A stretch of DNA of 64,000 nt from assembly GCF_004366375.1 (NCBI RefSeq), contig NZ_SOEF01000003.1:62001-126000 (forward strand). The letters run 5' to 3'. This stretch comes from Halanaerobium congolense. Lineage in GTDB: Bacteria; Bacillota; Halanaerobiia; Halanaerobiales; Halanaerobiaceae. Every line of letters starts with the position of its first letter. Within the stretch, counting starts at the first letter, position 1. Below the pieces are notes generated by a model. That model was not told the origin of the DNA. It saw only the letters and a program-made list of their open reading frames with translations, and searched no databases. Position numbers and translations under genes: made by a program. Shown here one piece after another: positions 27,132 to 34,692 of the stretch.

Positions 27132-28355
27132 TTACTCATTAATTTTATCTAATTTAAATTCTTGATGCAGAACATTAAGAGCTTTATTAGCATCATTTTT
27201 TTTGATTAAACAGGAAATTTTAATTTCAGAGGTAGTAATCATCCCAATATTAATATTATTTTCACCTAAAGAGGTAAACATTCTAGCTGCTATACCAGGT
27301 GTAGACTGCATTCCAGCACCAACAATTGAAATTTTAGCTACATCGCGATCAATACTATAATTATTAAATCTAATTTCAGATTTAATATTTTCCAGTACTT
27401 TAAGTGCTAATCTTTCCTGATCCTGATTTATGGTAAAGGTAATATCATTAAGCTCATCCCGCTGCAGGTTCTGAATAATCATATCAACATTAACTGCATT
27501 ATCAGCCAGAGATCTAAACATTTTACCAGCTATCCCTGGTTCATCAGGTACCCTTTCTACAGTAATTTTGATTTCTCCTAAATCACTTGCTACTCCAACT
27601 ACATTTTTTTTACCTTCCATTTTTTCATCTCCCCTAACAATTGTACCAGTAGTCTTATTAAAACTAGATGCTATATATAATTTTAAATCATAGGTTTTTG
27701 CCAGCTCTACTGCTCGTGGATGTAAAACATTAGCTCCTAAATTAGCCAGCTCTAACATTTCTTCATATGAAATATGATCTAATTTGCTTGCACTTCTTAC
27801 AACCCTTGGGTCTGCCGTATAAACACCATCAACATCAGAATAAATTTCACAGCGATCTGCATTTATGGCAGCTGCAACAGCAACTGTAGTTGTGTCAGAG
27901 CCACCTCTACCTAAGGTTGTGAAATCCTGATTTTCATTAACCCCCTGGAAACCAGCAACTATAACTATTTTATTCTCCGCTAATTCTTTTTTTAAACGGG
28001 TAGTATCAATGTCAGTAATCATCGCCTGATTATGTTTTTCATTTGTTTTGATTTTCATTTGACTTCCGGTTAATGAAATTGCTGGATACCCCAAAGCATG
28101 AATTGCCATAGTTAAAAGTGCTATTGAAACCTGTTCCCCGGTTGTTAAAAGCATATCTACTTCTCTTGGATCTGGATCATCAGTAATATCCTCCATTAAT
28201 TCAATTAGATGGTCTGTGGTATCTCCCATTGCAGAGACTACTACAATCATTTGATTGCCTTCCTCATATCCCTCAATTACTCTTTTGGCAACATTCTTAA
28301 TCAGGTCTGCATTTGCTACTGAACTTCCTCCATATTTTTGTACAATTAATGACAA
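27132..28355 (-). CDS. Aspartokinase
   Basis: This enzyme phosphorylates aspartate, the first step to lysine, threonine and methionine. It has the kinase motif VQKYGGSSVAN at the N-terminus, TTLGRGGSDTTTVA and YSDVDGVYTADPR, then two ACT domains (about 265-405) for feedback control. It has about 407 aa, lysC type. I place the start at the TTG 28355, 8 bases after GGAAGG, which gives the family N-terminus; a GTG at 28364 directly abuts that site. It ends the dut-thrB-hom-like-ask operon, which suggests threonine-linked regulation. Confidence 0.93.
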   Translation of the reverse strand: MSLIVQKYGGSSVANADLIKNVAKRVIEGYEEGNQMIVVVSAMGDTTDHLIELMEDITDDPDPREVDMLLTTGEQVSIALLTMAIHALGYPAISLTGSQMKIKTNEKHNQAMITDIDTTRLKKELAENKIVIVAGFQGVNENQDFTTLGRGGSDTTTVAVAAAINADRCEIYSDVDGVYTADPRVVRSASKLDHISYEEMLELANLGANVLHPRAVELAKTYDLKLYIASSFNKTTGTIVRGDEKMEGKKNVVGVASDLGEIKITVERVPDEPGIAGKMFRSLADNAVNVDMIIQNLQRDELNDITFTINQDQERLALKVLENIKSEIRFNNYSIDRDVAKISIVGAGMQSTPGIAARMFTSLGENNINIGMITTSEIKISCLIKKNDANKALNVLHQEFKLDKINE

Positions 28356-28385
28356 TTGTTTCACCTTCCTGTTGTTATAAAGTTA

Positions 28386-29672
28386 TTATTCTGCTTTAAC
28401 TGGTATAATATTATTAACAGTTAATACTCCTTTAAGTTTCTCGACTTCTTGCAGTATTATTTCCAAATCTTTTTCTGTGATTTTCTTAGTTATGATTATT
28501 ACCGGCAGCAGTGGTGTTTCAGTTAAATTATCCTGTAAAATCAAATCTGCCAGATTTTTTTCTGAAAAGATATTTTTTATTTCTTCAATAATTTTTTCAT
28601 CCTTTTCCAGCTGCAGTCTAATATAAAATACTCTTTTTTGATTATGATACAAATCAAAGATATTTTCAATCTCTGTTTCTAAATCAAAATTAATTTTATT
28701 CTTATTATTATTTTTAACTGCATTAATCAAATCTAAAATCAGCAGATTTTCAAGTGCTAAATCAGTATTTTTTGCTTTGAAATTAGTTTTGGAATTATAA
28801 CTTGAAACAAATTCAACAGCATTACTGTTTTCATTAACTGAAGCTAAAAAGTTATTTTTTCTAATTAAATTTGGTCTAACTCCTATGTAAAGATTTTCAT
28901 TTTCTTTTTTTATTGATGTTAATAGTTTTATTTTATAACCAAGTTCTGCAGCATAAATTAAATCATAACTGGTAATCCCTTTAATGCCTTTTACTTTAAC
29001 CAGTTCAGGATCTACATTTACATTATAAAATAAATTTGCTAATAAAACAATTTCATATAAACTATCTAAGCCTCCCAAATCTAATTCTGGATTTTCTTCA
29101 ATGTAACTTGATTCTTTAGCCTGCTCCAGTGTTTCTTTCATAGAAATAGTGTTTTTTTCCATTTCAGTTAAAATGAAATTGGTTGTTGCATTTAAAATAG
29201 CATTCATTTCTGTAATTTCATCTAAGGCAAAAAAATTATCAGTTAAAGTCTTTAAAGGCAGTGGAGAAAAAGCGGCAGAATAATATATTTTAGCCTGATG
29301 CTTTTCTTCAAGTCTTTTAAATTTACTAAAGTTTTCAGCCAGCATTTTTTTATTTGAAGTTATAACATTTTTTTTATTTTTTAAACTTTGAATAATATAA
29401 TCTTTTACATCTTCATTCTGACTTAAGTCTATAATTATATCGATTTTAGAATTCGAAAGCAGATCCTTAAACTTATTTACTACTTTTATTGAATTCATGG
29501 TGTTTAAGTCCAGCTTTTCAAAATTAATATCTTTTTCTGAAGAATAATTATAGATAAATTCTAATTCTATTTTTTCTCCTGCTAATTTTTCTATTTTATT
29601 TTTATTTTTAGCAAAAAATCGCATAAATGAATTAAAAGATTCCTGCTTAGCCATTAAAGCTGCTTTAGCCAT
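28386..29672 (-). CDS. Homoserine dehydrogenase homologue with degenerate cofactor and catalytic motifs
   Basis: Overall the 428 aa align with homoserine dehydrogenase: ITSNKK (104-109), ILNATTNFILT (159-169), the YIEENP...D..G.D run (190-203) and a C-terminal ACT domain (about 350-428). Key features are changed. The glycine-rich GxGxxG loop near residue 10 reads MAKQESFN. The GGGIP-type loop reads AAFSPLPLKTL (133-143). The second catalytic lysine (K223 in yeast) is Glu207. The PGAG element near residue 300 is absent. The gene has a good Shine-Dalgarno and overlaps thrB, so it is not obviously a pseudogene. It may be inactive, regulatory, or altered in cofactor use. Confidence 0.8.
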   Translation of the reverse strand: MAKAALMAKQESFNSFMRFFAKNKNKIEKLAGEKIELEFIYNYSSEKDINFEKLDLNTMNSIKVVNKFKDLLSNSKIDIIIDLSQNEDVKDYIIQSLKNKKNVITSNKKMLAENFSKFKRLEEKHQAKIYYSAAFSPLPLKTLTDNFFALDEITEMNAILNATTNFILTEMEKNTISMKETLEQAKESSYIEENPELDLGGLDSLYEIVLLANLFYNVNVDPELVKVKGIKGITSYDLIYAAELGYKIKLLTSIKKENENLYIGVRPNLIRKNNFLASVNENSNAVEFVSSYNSKTNFKAKNTDLALENLLILDLINAVKNNNKNKINFDLETEIENIFDLYHNQKRVFYIRLQLEKDEKIIEEIKNIFSEKNLADLILQDNLTETPLLPVIIITKKITEKDLEIILQEVEKLKGVLTVNNIIPVKAE

Positions 29673-30594
29673 TTTTTAATATCTCCTCTTTTAGACTCTG
29701 ATATAAACTTTTATTATAGGCTTTAATTATATAAAAACTTGAATCAATTGCAAGTGAATCGTAATTTTTTTTCATTTCTGCTGCAATTATTTTTTCATTT
29801 TCAACTGCCAACGCTAAAATTGTTGGCCCGGCTCCACTTAAAGCTGCACCGACAGCACCATTAATATAGGCTGTCTCTATAATCTTATCAAAACCTTTTA
29901 TTAACTGCTTGCGGTATGGCTGATGGAGCTGATCATCCATCGCAATTTTTAATAATTGATAATCGCGGTTGATAAAAGCTGCAGTTAAAAGACTAATTCG
30001 ACTTAAATTTGAAATAACAGCAGGATAGTTTATCTGATCAGGTAAAACCTGACGCAATTTTTCTGTTTTTAGCTCATAATCAGGCACTAATAAAATGCAG
30101 TTTAAATTTTGATCCACATCTATTTTATAATAATCATAGTTATCACTGCAATTAAAATTTACTGTTAAACCTCCAACTAAAGCAGGCACAACATTATCTG
30201 GATGTTTTTCCAGCTCAACTGCAAGCTGAATAAAATCTTTTTCCGTTATTAATTGTCCAGAAACTACTGCAGCAGCTGCAAGTCCCCCAATGATAGCCGA
30301 AGCACTACTTCCTAAACCTCGAGCCAGCGGGCTGTTCATCTCTTCGACAATTTCAGCCCCAATAATATCTTTTTTTAAAAACTTGAAATATCTCTGGTAA
30401 GCCTGTGCAATTAGATTATCTGAGGCAGCTATTTTAATTTCTTGCTCTTTATTTTGATCAATAACCTTAATTTTAAGCTTTTGGTCAGCTCTTTTTTTTA
30501 TTTTAAAATTATTAAATAAAGTCAAAGCCAAACCTAAAGTATCATAACCCGGACCAAGATTTGCTGATGTTGCAGGAACTTTAATTTCAGTCAT
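29665..30594 (-). CDS. thrB: Homoserine kinase
   Basis: This GHMP-family kinase phosphorylates homoserine for threonine synthesis. It has an N-terminal VPATSANLGPGYDTLGLAL, ATP-binding PLARGLGSSASAIIGGLAAA and a C-terminal GAALSGAGPTILAL; all are intact. Its 309 aa are normal. It overlaps both dut (8 bases) and the homoserine dehydrogenase homologue (8 bases). Its intact state shows the operon still expects homoserine, so a working dehydrogenase should exist elsewhere if the neighbour is dead. Confidence 0.96.
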   Translation of the reverse strand: MTEIKVPATSANLGPGYDTLGLALTLFNNFKIKKRADQKLKIKVIDQNKEQEIKIAASDNLIAQAYQRYFKFLKKDIIGAEIVEEMNSPLARGLGSSASAIIGGLAAAAVVSGQLITEKDFIQLAVELEKHPDNVVPALVGGLTVNFNCSDNYDYYKIDVDQNLNCILLVPDYELKTEKLRQVLPDQINYPAVISNLSRISLLTAAFINRDYQLLKIAMDDQLHQPYRKQLIKGFDKIIETAYINGAVGAALSGAGPTILALAVENEKIIAAEMKKNYDSLAIDSSFYIIKAYNKSLYQSLKEEILKNG

Positions 30595-31048
30595 TTAGAT
30601 TTTCCTTTCTTAGTTTTTTTACTCCTGTGTGACCAAAGCCGCCTTCTCCACGCTGACTTTTGCTTAAACTTTCCACTTCATTCCACTCAATAATATTAAT
30701 TTTTTGAATTATTAATTGAGCAATACGATCATTAAAATTAATCTTAAAGTCTTCTGGACCGTGGTTGATTAAAATTACCCCAACCTCACCTCTGTAACCA
30801 GAGTCTATGACTCCATCTGCATTTAAGACAGTTACCCCTTTTTTCAAAGCCAGTCCGCTGCGGGGATAAACAAAGGCCGCATAACCTTTGGGAACAGCTA
30901 TTTTTAAACCAGTTTTTATTAATTTATATTCACCGCTTTTAATAGTTAGTTCTTCTGCTGCATGAAGATCCAGCCCGGCGTCTTCACCATAATGTTGATA
31001 TTGAGGTAATTCTATCTTTTTATTCAGTCTTTCTACCTTAATTTCCAT
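30587..31048 (-). CDS. dut: dUTP diphosphatase
   Basis: This trimeric enzyme hydrolyses dUTP to dUMP, protecting DNA from uracil. All five family motifs are present, among them AGLDLHA, PRSGLALKKG, NADGVIDSGYRGE and the C-terminal RGEGGFGHTG. It has about 153 aa. I choose the ATG at 31048, which lies 8 bases after AAAGGA; the two earlier ATGs overlap that site. It is the promoter-proximal gene of the threonine operon, an unusual partner. The promoter is at 31107-31135. Confidence 0.96.
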   Translation of the reverse strand: MEIKVERLNKKIELPQYQHYGEDAGLDLHAAEELTIKSGEYKLIKTGLKIAVPKGYAAFVYPRSGLALKKGVTVLNADGVIDSGYRGEVGVILINHGPEDFKINFNDRIAQLIIQKINIIEWNEVESLSKSQRGEGGFGHTGVKKLRKENLND

Positions 31049-31106
31049 TACCATCATCCTTTATTTTAATTTGCAGACCAGTTAGAGAATTAATCTGATA
31101 GTTATT

Positions 31107-32241: not shown

Positions 32242-34692
32242 TCAAGCTCCATTTTCATCGATTTTTTCAACCAACTTATTACAATTAAGTTCTACAACAG
32301 GGCAGCCTTCCGGCAGAGAATCTAAAAATTTATGACCATAAGATCTGCTTTTAACCCTGCGGTCAAATAAAATTATAAGGCCCTTATCTTTTTTTGATCG
32401 AATTAAACGACCAAAACCCTGGCGGAATTTAATTACCGCCTGTGGTAAGGCAAGATTATAGAAGGGGTTTAGACCCTCTGCTTTTAACAAATCCTCTTTT
32501 GCCTGATATAATGGCTCGCCAGGCACCGGAAAAGGTAGTTTAACCATTACTAAATACTTTAAAATATCTCCAGGTAAATCTACCCCCTCCCAAAAACTTG
32601 AGGTCCCAAAAATAACTGTATTATACTCAGCTCTAAATTCCTGCATAATATAATTACGTGACAATCTAGACTGAGATAAAATTCTGATTCCTAATTCTTC
32701 TAATTCATCCTTCAGATTATTATAGCAATAACTCAGCATTCGATAAGAGGTAAATAAAACCATTGTTGAGCCTCGGCTTTTAGAAATTATCTTTTTCAAA
32801 TTGATTACAAGTTCTTTTAAAAAGTTTTTATTACCCGGATCAGGAAAATCAAGTGGAATCAACAATTCTGCCTGTTTAGAATAGTCAAAAGGTGACTCAA
32901 CCTTTAATTCTTCAGCAGTTTTTATACCTGTTTCTCGATAAAAATAATCAAACGAGTTAGCAGCAGTTATGGTAGCAGAAGTAAAGATTATATTTGTTAA
33001 TTTTGACCAGAGCATATCTGGCAAAAATTTACCGGCATCTATCGGAGCAGATTTTTGAACTATCTGTTCAGAGCCTCGATAATAACTTGATTCCAGCCAA
33101 AAAACATAATCATCATCTGCTGCTTCTAAATTAAATTCTATTCTTTTAATCAAATCATGACAGCGGTTAATGCTTGATTTGATTTTCATTTCACTTTCAT
33201 CAGTCTCAGCTTCTAAGCCGAGATATAAATTTTCATATATAATCTGCAGAAAAGAAAAATTATTTTTTAAATAAGCAGCTAAATCTTGGGCGGTTTGATA
33301 AAACTCCTGCCACTTCATCTCTGACTGCAGTTTTTGATTAACCGTAATCTTTTTATCTCGATAATCTGCAATTAAATCTTTTAATTCATTAAAATACTGA
33401 GGAATTAAGTCTCTTATTTTTTGAGTTGTTGGAATTATTTTTTTATCTAAAATATCTCTCAATCTTTTCTGATCACTATCAACAGCCAAGGCTATATCCT
33501 CTCTAATTTCCGATAAAAGAGAGTTTTTATCACCACTTAATCTTTTCAACCAGTTATCAAGCAGAGGCTGATATAAGGGGTGACCTAAATGATCTGTTGC
33601 AATTTCTCCAATATTATGAGCTTCATCGATAATTAAATGATTAAAGTTAGGTAAAATACCGCGATCAGCAGAACCAGCATCATCTTTAACTCTAGCATCA
33701 GATAAAAGAAGATGATGATTAACTATCAAAATATCAGCTTTATAGATTGCTTTCCTGGCCTGCATGAAATAACAATTTGAATAAAAGGGACAGGAAGTTT
33801 TTAAACAGAGATCACTTTCAGCTGCAATTTGATTCCAAATTAATTTTTTTAACTGAAAATTTATTTCGGATTTTTCTCCAGCTTCAGTCTGTTTTTTCCA
33901 ATCATTTAATTCATGGAAAAGCTCTGCTTTTATTTTTAAATCATCGTTCTCAAAATTCTTTTTAAAATTTTTGAATTTACGCAGACAGAGATAATTATTT
34001 CTGCCTTTAACTAAGACAGCATTAAAATCAAAATCTAAAACCCGCTTTAAAGTCACTAGATCTTTATTTATCAGCTGTTCCTGTAAATTTATCGTATTTG
34101 TTGACACTACAATTCTTGCCTGATTTAAATTATTATAAAAAAGAGCTGGTATTAAATAAGCAAATGATTTACCAGTACCTGTACCCGCCTCAATAAAATC
34201 AAATTGATGTTGATTAAAGGAGTTAATAATTTTTTCGGCTGTTAAAAGCTGTTCTTTTCTTTCTGAAAAATTATCAATTTCTTGAGCTAGTTTACCCTCT
34301 TTTTTAAAATAACTTAAAATTTCTTCTTTATCCAATTTTTTATTTTCTTTTTTGCTGCCGGCCTCAACTACTACATAAATTTGATCAGCCTGATTATTTA
34401 CTATGGCAAAACCAATTCCTCTTTCTGCCATTTTAGCAGCCAGTCTAATATCAGCAGCCGATGGTGTTAAGTCACCAGAAGGATGGTTGTGAATAATCAT
34501 TTCGCCAGCCATTAAATTATTGATTACAGCTGGTGCAGAATAACTATTACCTCTTGCCAGTACTTCAATATCTTCAATGATATTTTTATTATTTAATTGA
34601 GCTCTCATAAATATTTCATTACCAGAAGCTGCTTCAATTTCATTTTCTATTATATTTCCAACTTCTAATAACATTTCAGCACTAGCAGACAA
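32242..34692 (-). CDS. RadC-type JAMM domain fused to DinG/XPD-family helicase
   Basis: This is a two-part DNA metabolism protein of 816 aa. Residues 1-110 resemble the RadC JAMM domain, with HNHPSG (68-73) and Asp81 forming the metal site together with an upstream Glu. Residues 140-816 are a DinG/XPD superfamily 2 helicase: Walker A EAGTGTGKS (168-176), four cysteines likely holding an Fe-S cluster (236, 296, 301, 307), DEAH (356-359), and C-terminal GFGRLIRSKKDKG. The start is TTG behind GGGAGGA. Helicase activity is well supported; the role of the JAMM part is unknown. It lies between nfo and the sleB-like gene. Confidence 0.88.
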   Translation of the reverse strand: MSASAEMLLEVGNIIENEIEAASGNEIFMRAQLNNKNIIEDIEVLARGNSYSAPAVINNLMAGEMIIHNHPSGDLTPSAADIRLAAKMAERGIGFAIVNNQADQIYVVVEAGSKKENKKLDKEEILSYFKKEGKLAQEIDNFSERKEQLLTAEKIINSFNQHQFDFIEAGTGTGKSFAYLIPALFYNNLNQARIVVSTNTINLQEQLINKDLVTLKRVLDFDFNAVLVKGRNNYLCLRKFKNFKKNFENDDLKIKAELFHELNDWKKQTEAGEKSEINFQLKKLIWNQIAAESDLCLKTSCPFYSNCYFMQARKAIYKADILIVNHHLLLSDARVKDDAGSADRGILPNFNHLIIDEAHNIGEIATDHLGHPLYQPLLDNWLKRLSGDKNSLLSEIREDIALAVDSDQKRLRDILDKKIIPTTQKIRDLIPQYFNELKDLIADYRDKKITVNQKLQSEMKWQEFYQTAQDLAAYLKNNFSFLQIIYENLYLGLEAETDESEMKIKSSINRCHDLIKRIEFNLEAADDDYVFWLESSYYRGSEQIVQKSAPIDAGKFLPDMLWSKLTNIIFTSATITAANSFDYFYRETGIKTAEELKVESPFDYSKQAELLIPLDFPDPGNKNFLKELVINLKKIISKSRGSTMVLFTSYRMLSYCYNNLKDELEELGIRILSQSRLSRNYIMQEFRAEYNTVIFGTSSFWEGVDLPGDILKYLVMVKLPFPVPGEPLYQAKEDLLKAEGLNPFYNLALPQAVIKFRQGFGRLIRSKKDKGLIILFDRRVKSRSYGHKFLDSLPEGCPVVELNCNKLVEKIDENGA

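Follow-up and report, generated by a model that had tools for sequence, protein, structure and literature searches.

Dead paralogues acting as regulators are known in amino-acid synthesis; HisZ, for example, is an inactive paralogue that regulates HisG. In a limited search of the open-access literature, no such regulator was found described for homoserine dehydrogenase (HSD), nor was any HSD pseudoenzyme. HomB, a protein encoded in the threonine operon of Halanaerobium congolense, a member of a genus of salt-loving bacteria, resembles HisZ in being a predicted dead paralogue of a biosynthetic enzyme that has been kept in the gene cluster of its pathway. The two differ in that HisZ regulates its own paralogue-like enzyme, whereas the enzyme encoded next to HomB is an aspartokinase. 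A physical partnership of aspartokinase and HSD is found in ThrA and MetL, which are aspartokinase-homoserine dehydrogenase fusions. For HomB such a partnership is a candidate only and, unlike in ThrA/MetL, the two proteins are encoded by separate genes and the HSD part appears to be inactive. HomB shares its full-length fold, domain order and thr-operon position with monofunctional HSDs that carry a C-terminal ACT domain (3mtj, 6dzs, 4pg4), but differs from them in that the GxGxxG, ELIGG, GGGIP and GAG loops are lost and the ACT region has neither a PG loop nor a Pfam ACT match. HomB is probably a pseudoenzyme that has been retained because of a structural or regulatory function, with the aspartokinase LysC as the leading candidate partner.

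The homB locus

Within the window, i.e., the whole 64,000-nucleotide stretch of DNA that was analysed, homB lies in a run of genes ordered dut - thrB - homB - lysC:

30587..31057, minus strand: dut, dUTPase, upstream in the same gene run (ORF, NCBIfam)
29665..30594, minus strand: thrB, homoserine kinase, intact, overlapping homB by 8 nt (ORF, NCBIfam)
29683..29688, minus strand: GAGGAG ribosome-binding site of homB, within the 3' end of thrB (sequence)
28386..29672, minus strand: homB, degenerate homoserine dehydrogenase of 428 aa with an ATG start (ORF, Pfam/NCBIfam, structure model, fold match)
27132..28364, minus strand: lysC, sole aspartokinase gene in this genome (ORF, NCBIfam, family search)

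An earlier note on this DNA had described an intact homB with a good ribosome-binding site between thrB and an aspartokinase gene, and this description holds: the 428-aa frame is open and is preceded by GAGGAG at 29688-29683. A Shine-Dalgarno match of at least five bases is present upstream of each HomB orthologue, and lysC starts 21-30 nt downstream of homB. For lysC itself, a TTG start at 28355, with an AGGAAGG site upstream, is likelier than the listed GTG at 28364; translation from the TTG gives 407 aa, the length also listed for the LysC proteins of genomes G004 and G009. RNA elements of note were not found in the homB operon, where the search returned one sub-threshold match.

The surroundings of the operon vary among genomes. 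In the window, an 816-aa protein (32242-34692, minus strand) combines a RadC/JAB domain (PF04002, residues 11-91) with a DinG-type helicase (PF13307) and is 74-91% identical to its counterparts in other Halanaerobium genomes. In several relatives, a polysaccharide deacetylase-family gene (L025 7472-8323; PF01522, tested in L025 alone) lies between a LysM hydrolase gene and dut; it occupies the same place in G002 and G006-G009 and is absent from the window. An IF-2B family gene, likely an mtnA-type isomerase (PF01008, tested in L033 alone), lies between dut and thrB in G001, G003 and G013 (L033 8682-9725, L032 5040-6095 and L035 9997-11037) and is absent from that position in species with eroded HomB.

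Fold of HomB and loss of the cofactor loops

The family scaffold had been reported as kept, and both profile and structure comparisons agree. HomB matches Homoserine_dh (PF00742), the catalytic/dimerisation domain, with an E value of 3e-37, whereas its NAD_binding_3 match is partial and begins at profile position 18, past the glycine loop. An AlphaFold2 model built from 26 sequences (mean pLDDT 88.6, pTM 0.89) has the HSD fold and matches the full-length structures 3mtj (Thiobacillus HSD) and 6dzs (mycobacterial ThrA) with TM scores of 0.88-0.90 over approx. 438 columns (Foldseek). Because the match extends over the full length, the missing loops have not been relocated; the glycine-rich loop and the other elements are not recovered elsewhere in the chain, and the motif loss thus survives structural alignment.

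Full-length HomB orthologues without internal stops were found in 11 Halanaerobium genomes and in G013, from a neighbouring genus. All four loops have been lost in nine Halanaerobium species, including this one; the orthologues of these species are referred to below as eroded. They were compared with 13 intact HSDs, namely nine HomA paralogues (see below) and the operonic HSDs of G001, G003 and G013 (all HomB) and of G012. The features recognised in HomB of this genome are the following (the former loops by alignment against the 13 intact HSDs, the residues and the conserved segment by alignment, the C-terminal domain by model and alignment):

29628..29651, minus strand: AKQESFNS in place of the GxGxxG dinucleotide-binding loop, residues 8-15
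29415..29429, minus strand: DLSQN in place of the ELIGG cofactor-contact loop, residues 82-86
29349..29351, minus strand: K108, corresponding to yeast K117, shared with G005 and gone in the seven other eroded orthologues
29256..29270, minus strand: F-SPLP in place of the GGGIP loop, shorter by one residue, residues 135-139
29097..29099, minus strand: E192, yeast E208 equivalent, kept in seven of the nine eroded orthologues
29064..29066, minus strand: D203, yeast D219 equivalent, kept in seven of the nine eroded orthologues
29052..29054, minus strand: E207, found in this genome only, at the position of the catalytic lysine (corresponding to yeast K223)
28923..28988, minus strand: GIKGITSYDLIYAxELGYKIKL, the most conserved HomB segment, residues 229-250
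28761..28769, minus strand: former GAG cofactor element, now NTD, residues 302-304
28389..28637, minus strand: ACT-like domain at the C terminus (residues 346-428), lacking the PG loop and strongly conserved among HomBs

The claim that the GxGxxG, GGGIP and PGAG elements are gone is borne out by this alignment, in which HomB reads AKQESF, F-SPLP and, opposite GAGxxP, NTD-LA. The full GxGxxG motif is missing in all nine eroded orthologues, and G009 retains only GxG. Among 82 positions invariant in the intact HSDs, 24 are kept in every eroded orthologue and 20 are altered in every one. Most of the latter fall within the cofactor and substrate loops or directly beside them, and they include one glycine of GxGxxG and the glycines of ELIGG, GGGIP and GAG.

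The catalytic residues, whose yeast equivalents we presume to be K117, E208, D219 and K223, present a more variable picture: none of the four (K108, E192, D203, K207) is conserved in all nine eroded orthologues. The earlier note was right that the lysine of ITSNKK (K108) is kept and that Glu207 replaces a lysine, as E207 lies opposite the lysine of the solved HSD 4pg4. Both are nonetheless poor markers: K108 survives in two of nine, and position 207 is K in seven of the other eroded orthologues and R in one (G009). E192 and D203 are indeed retained in HomB of this genome and are lost in G004 and G009.

Most eroded orthologues retain the substrate-side residues E192, D203 and K/R207, so that ligand binding, or even some remaining chemistry, would be possible. 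In one explicit version, the cofactor half was discarded and the old substrate pocket still holds a ligand (homoserine, aspartate semialdehyde or threonine) whose presence is signalled to a partner or to the control of expression. The retention of N161, T164, N165, D198 and G201 in all nine eroded orthologues, together with the complete loss of the cofactor loops, is in keeping with such a sensor. On the other hand, E192 and D203 are gone in two genomes, the GGGIP substrate loop is altered in all nine, and the conserved residues may be structural, so we regard this explanation as quite unlikely.

The C-terminal region of the model has the topology strand-helix-strand-strand-helix-strand, which is the ACT order. 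It reads EKDEKII where the ACT effector loop has DxPGV, and the PG loop is missing in all 12 HomBs, intact ones included, whereas HomA has it. Likewise, no Pfam ACT match is listed at E<=0.1 for any of the 12 HomBs, and HomA has one. The absence of the PG loop even from intact HomBs makes threonine sensing through this region doubtful. Thus, of the regulatory ACT role proposed earlier, the fold stands (in the model) and threonine sensing is not indicated. Invariant positions make up 47% of the ACT region in the eroded set vs. 7% of the N domain. An assembly surface is, we infer, more likely than a canonical threonine sensor.

Distribution and history of homB

Intact HomB is carried by the basal genomes G001 and G003 and by G013. 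The nine eroded orthologues form one clade with support of 100 in the HSD gene tree, and a species tree built from LysC, AsnS, DinG and Dut agrees with this clade (support 92 at the node where G009 joins the others). The simplest reading of these sequences would be that erosion of HomB began once. That the loss is common to nine genomes rules out a sequencing or assembly artefact. In all 12 genomes with the locus, homB lies just upstream of lysC, and no homB-bearing genome has an aspartokinase other than LysC that passes the family cutoff. No HomB match was found in G011 (75% complete).

In a survey of 249 genomes of the phylum, HomB-like scores (580-652 bits) occurred only in Halanaerobiaceae among the matches listed, the others reaching at most approx. 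300 bits. A single-protein scan of GTDB contigs for HomB gave no match, and an alignment-based scan of these contigs returned Halanaerobium HomB orthologues and ordinary HSDs; the HomB-bearing matches include H. kushneri, strains of H. saccharolyticum, H. polyolivorans (with intact HomB) and H. salsuginis. It should be noted that PF00742 proteins are altogether missing from six other genomes of the order (G014 and G024-G028), of which four reach a completeness of 90% or more; this suggests that the threonine branch has been lost repeatedly in the order.

Selection acting on homB

Estimates of dN/dS were obtained by a counting method and are rough for those pairs in which dS exceeds 1. For the intact pair G001-G003, HomB gave 0.057 overall, similar to LysC (0.039) and HomA (0.042). 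Eroded pairs, except the very close G007-G010, gave 0.19-0.25 overall for HomB, and the contrast between its domains is clear: 0.24-0.51 in the N domain, 0.10-0.14 in the core and 0.09-0.13 in the ACT region. The neutrality and relaxation tests treat substitutions as independent and are based on ratios that are approximate where dS saturates, as it does for some pairs. In these tests, neutrality was rejected for core and ACT in G006-G008 and G000-G005 (p 6e-7 to 2e-15). For the same two pairs, the whole gene was relaxed in comparison with the intact pair (p 6e-7 and 2e-11), and relaxation was stronger in the N domain than in core plus ACT (p 5e-5 and 4e-8). HomA and LysC showed no relaxation comparable to that of HomB. 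A pseudogene restricted to a single genome is ruled out by these ratios and by the open frames.

Two rival explanations are affected by this pattern. Decay of homB, or its retention only as a translated spacer that couples thrB to lysC expression, would be compatible with the fast evolution of the N domain and linker, with the overlapping and closely spaced genes and with the possibly recent loss of the pathway in G004. It is hard to reconcile with dN/dS of approx. 0.1 in the core and ACT region, with a full-length homB in nine of nine genomes and with the near-invariant 229-250 segment (of its 22 positions, 21 do not vary among the nine eroded orthologues and 19 do not vary among all twelve HomBs), and it is therefore considered very unlikely. 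That HomB is still an enzyme, with an unusual cofactor mode or a different chemistry, appears similarly far-fetched. The fold and several substrate-side residues are kept, and NCBIfam calls HomB a homoserine dehydrogenase (NF004976, 222.6 bits vs. a cutoff of 205). Against this, the four cofactor loops are lost in every eroded orthologue, the N domain is relaxed and the catalytic residues are not uniformly conserved. In the relaxed N-terminal domain of the eroded orthologues, no new motif has become conserved in place of the lost loops, and the different cofactor offered earlier as an option thus finds no support. The other option offered, a pseudoenzyme, agrees with the loss of the cofactor loops in nine of nine orthologues and with an open gene under purifying selection. 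A selected, non-catalytic HomB is, at the level of sequence, well supported.

HomA and the supply of homoserine

If HomB is dead, another dehydrogenase must supply homoserine, as had been pointed out, and a search of the genome found one. The genome encodes exactly two PF00742 proteins, HomB and HomA, the latter on a different contig (G000:C7:67875-69146). HomA aligns end to end with solved HSDs, keeps all motifs and groups among the canonical HSDs of the order (tree support 100%). Homoserine supply is thus covered, which rules out a genome devoid of it. HomA resembles HomB in family and domain order, with approx. 29% identity, but differs in that all catalytic and cofactor residues are kept, the ACT domain is recognised by Pfam and dN/dS is 0.03-0.07. 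The two proteins are old separate lineages rather than products of a recent duplication.

The presence of HomA allows another role to be considered, in which HomB is a regulatory subunit of HomA in mixed oligomers, the dead paralogue carrying allosteric control as HisZ does for HisG. HSDs are oligomers, and all eroded HomBs found belong to the genus in which HomA is present as well, while G013, which lacks HomA, has an intact HomB. The low identity and long separation of the two lineages speak against mixed oligomers, as do an ACT-like domain without a PG loop and the presence of homB without homA in G004, although that loss may be recent. Overall, this role is unlikely, though together with the ligand sensor it is an alternative still to be reckoned with.

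A homB gene without the threonine branch

G004 has no second HSD, even by permissive search, no thrC above cutoff, no intact thrB and no lysA at 1e-10. It keeps dapA and lysC, and its homB, located between dut and lysC, is open. A remnant of thrB is still visible there:

L031 6935-7089: thrB scar between dut and homB in G004, in which 48 nt match G006 thrB at 46 positions (approx. 96%)

HomB of G004 has lost K108, E192 and D203 and has kept the 229-250 segment. The persistence of homB without homA, above-cutoff thrC or intact thrB weakens the case for tying it to the threonine operon. This is suggestive, and only suggestive, of a function unrelated to threonine synthesis, in a setting in which aspartokinase still supplies the route to diaminopimelate. 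The high similarity of the scar to G006 thrB implies that thrB was lost recently, in which case homB may simply have lacked the time to decay.

Proposed role of HomB and significance

The preferred reading, that HomB is a pseudoenzyme with a structural or regulatory role, can be outlined as follows. HomB would descend from a working operonic homoserine dehydrogenase of Halanaerobiaceae. In a genus that possesses a second, canonical HSD (HomA), one clade, as the sequences show, has lost every cofactor loop of HomB, while the folded core and C-terminal ACT-like domain stayed under purifying selection. HomB thus probably works without catalysing the dehydrogenase reaction and most likely serves the aspartate pathway as a structural or regulatory subunit. 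The leading candidate partner is the adjacent, sole aspartokinase LysC, for which the core and ACT-like domain of HomB would form the interaction surface. The HomB-LysC partnership is suggested by constant adjacency, by the status of LysC as the only aspartokinase and by G004; gene order of this kind is expected from an operon anyway, and the partnership is put forward tentatively, as somewhat less than an even chance. A more specific proposal, in which a former HSD now serves a stand-alone aspartokinase solely as its non-catalytic regulatory subunit and the pair is a two-protein, dead-HSD counterpart of the fused ThrA/MetL, is more doubtful still.

With a score above the NF004976 cutoff, HomB would be named homoserine dehydrogenase by automatic pipelines. 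This is an annotation trap, as a species can be predicted to possess a pathway step that homB probably cannot carry out. Halanaerobium offers a graded series, from an intact enzyme, through an eroded enzyme accompanied by a canonical second copy, to an eroded copy without the threonine branch, and this series makes the change from enzyme to non-enzyme testable by ordinary biochemistry. If the subunit reading is true, intact and eroded stages would both be alive in one genus.
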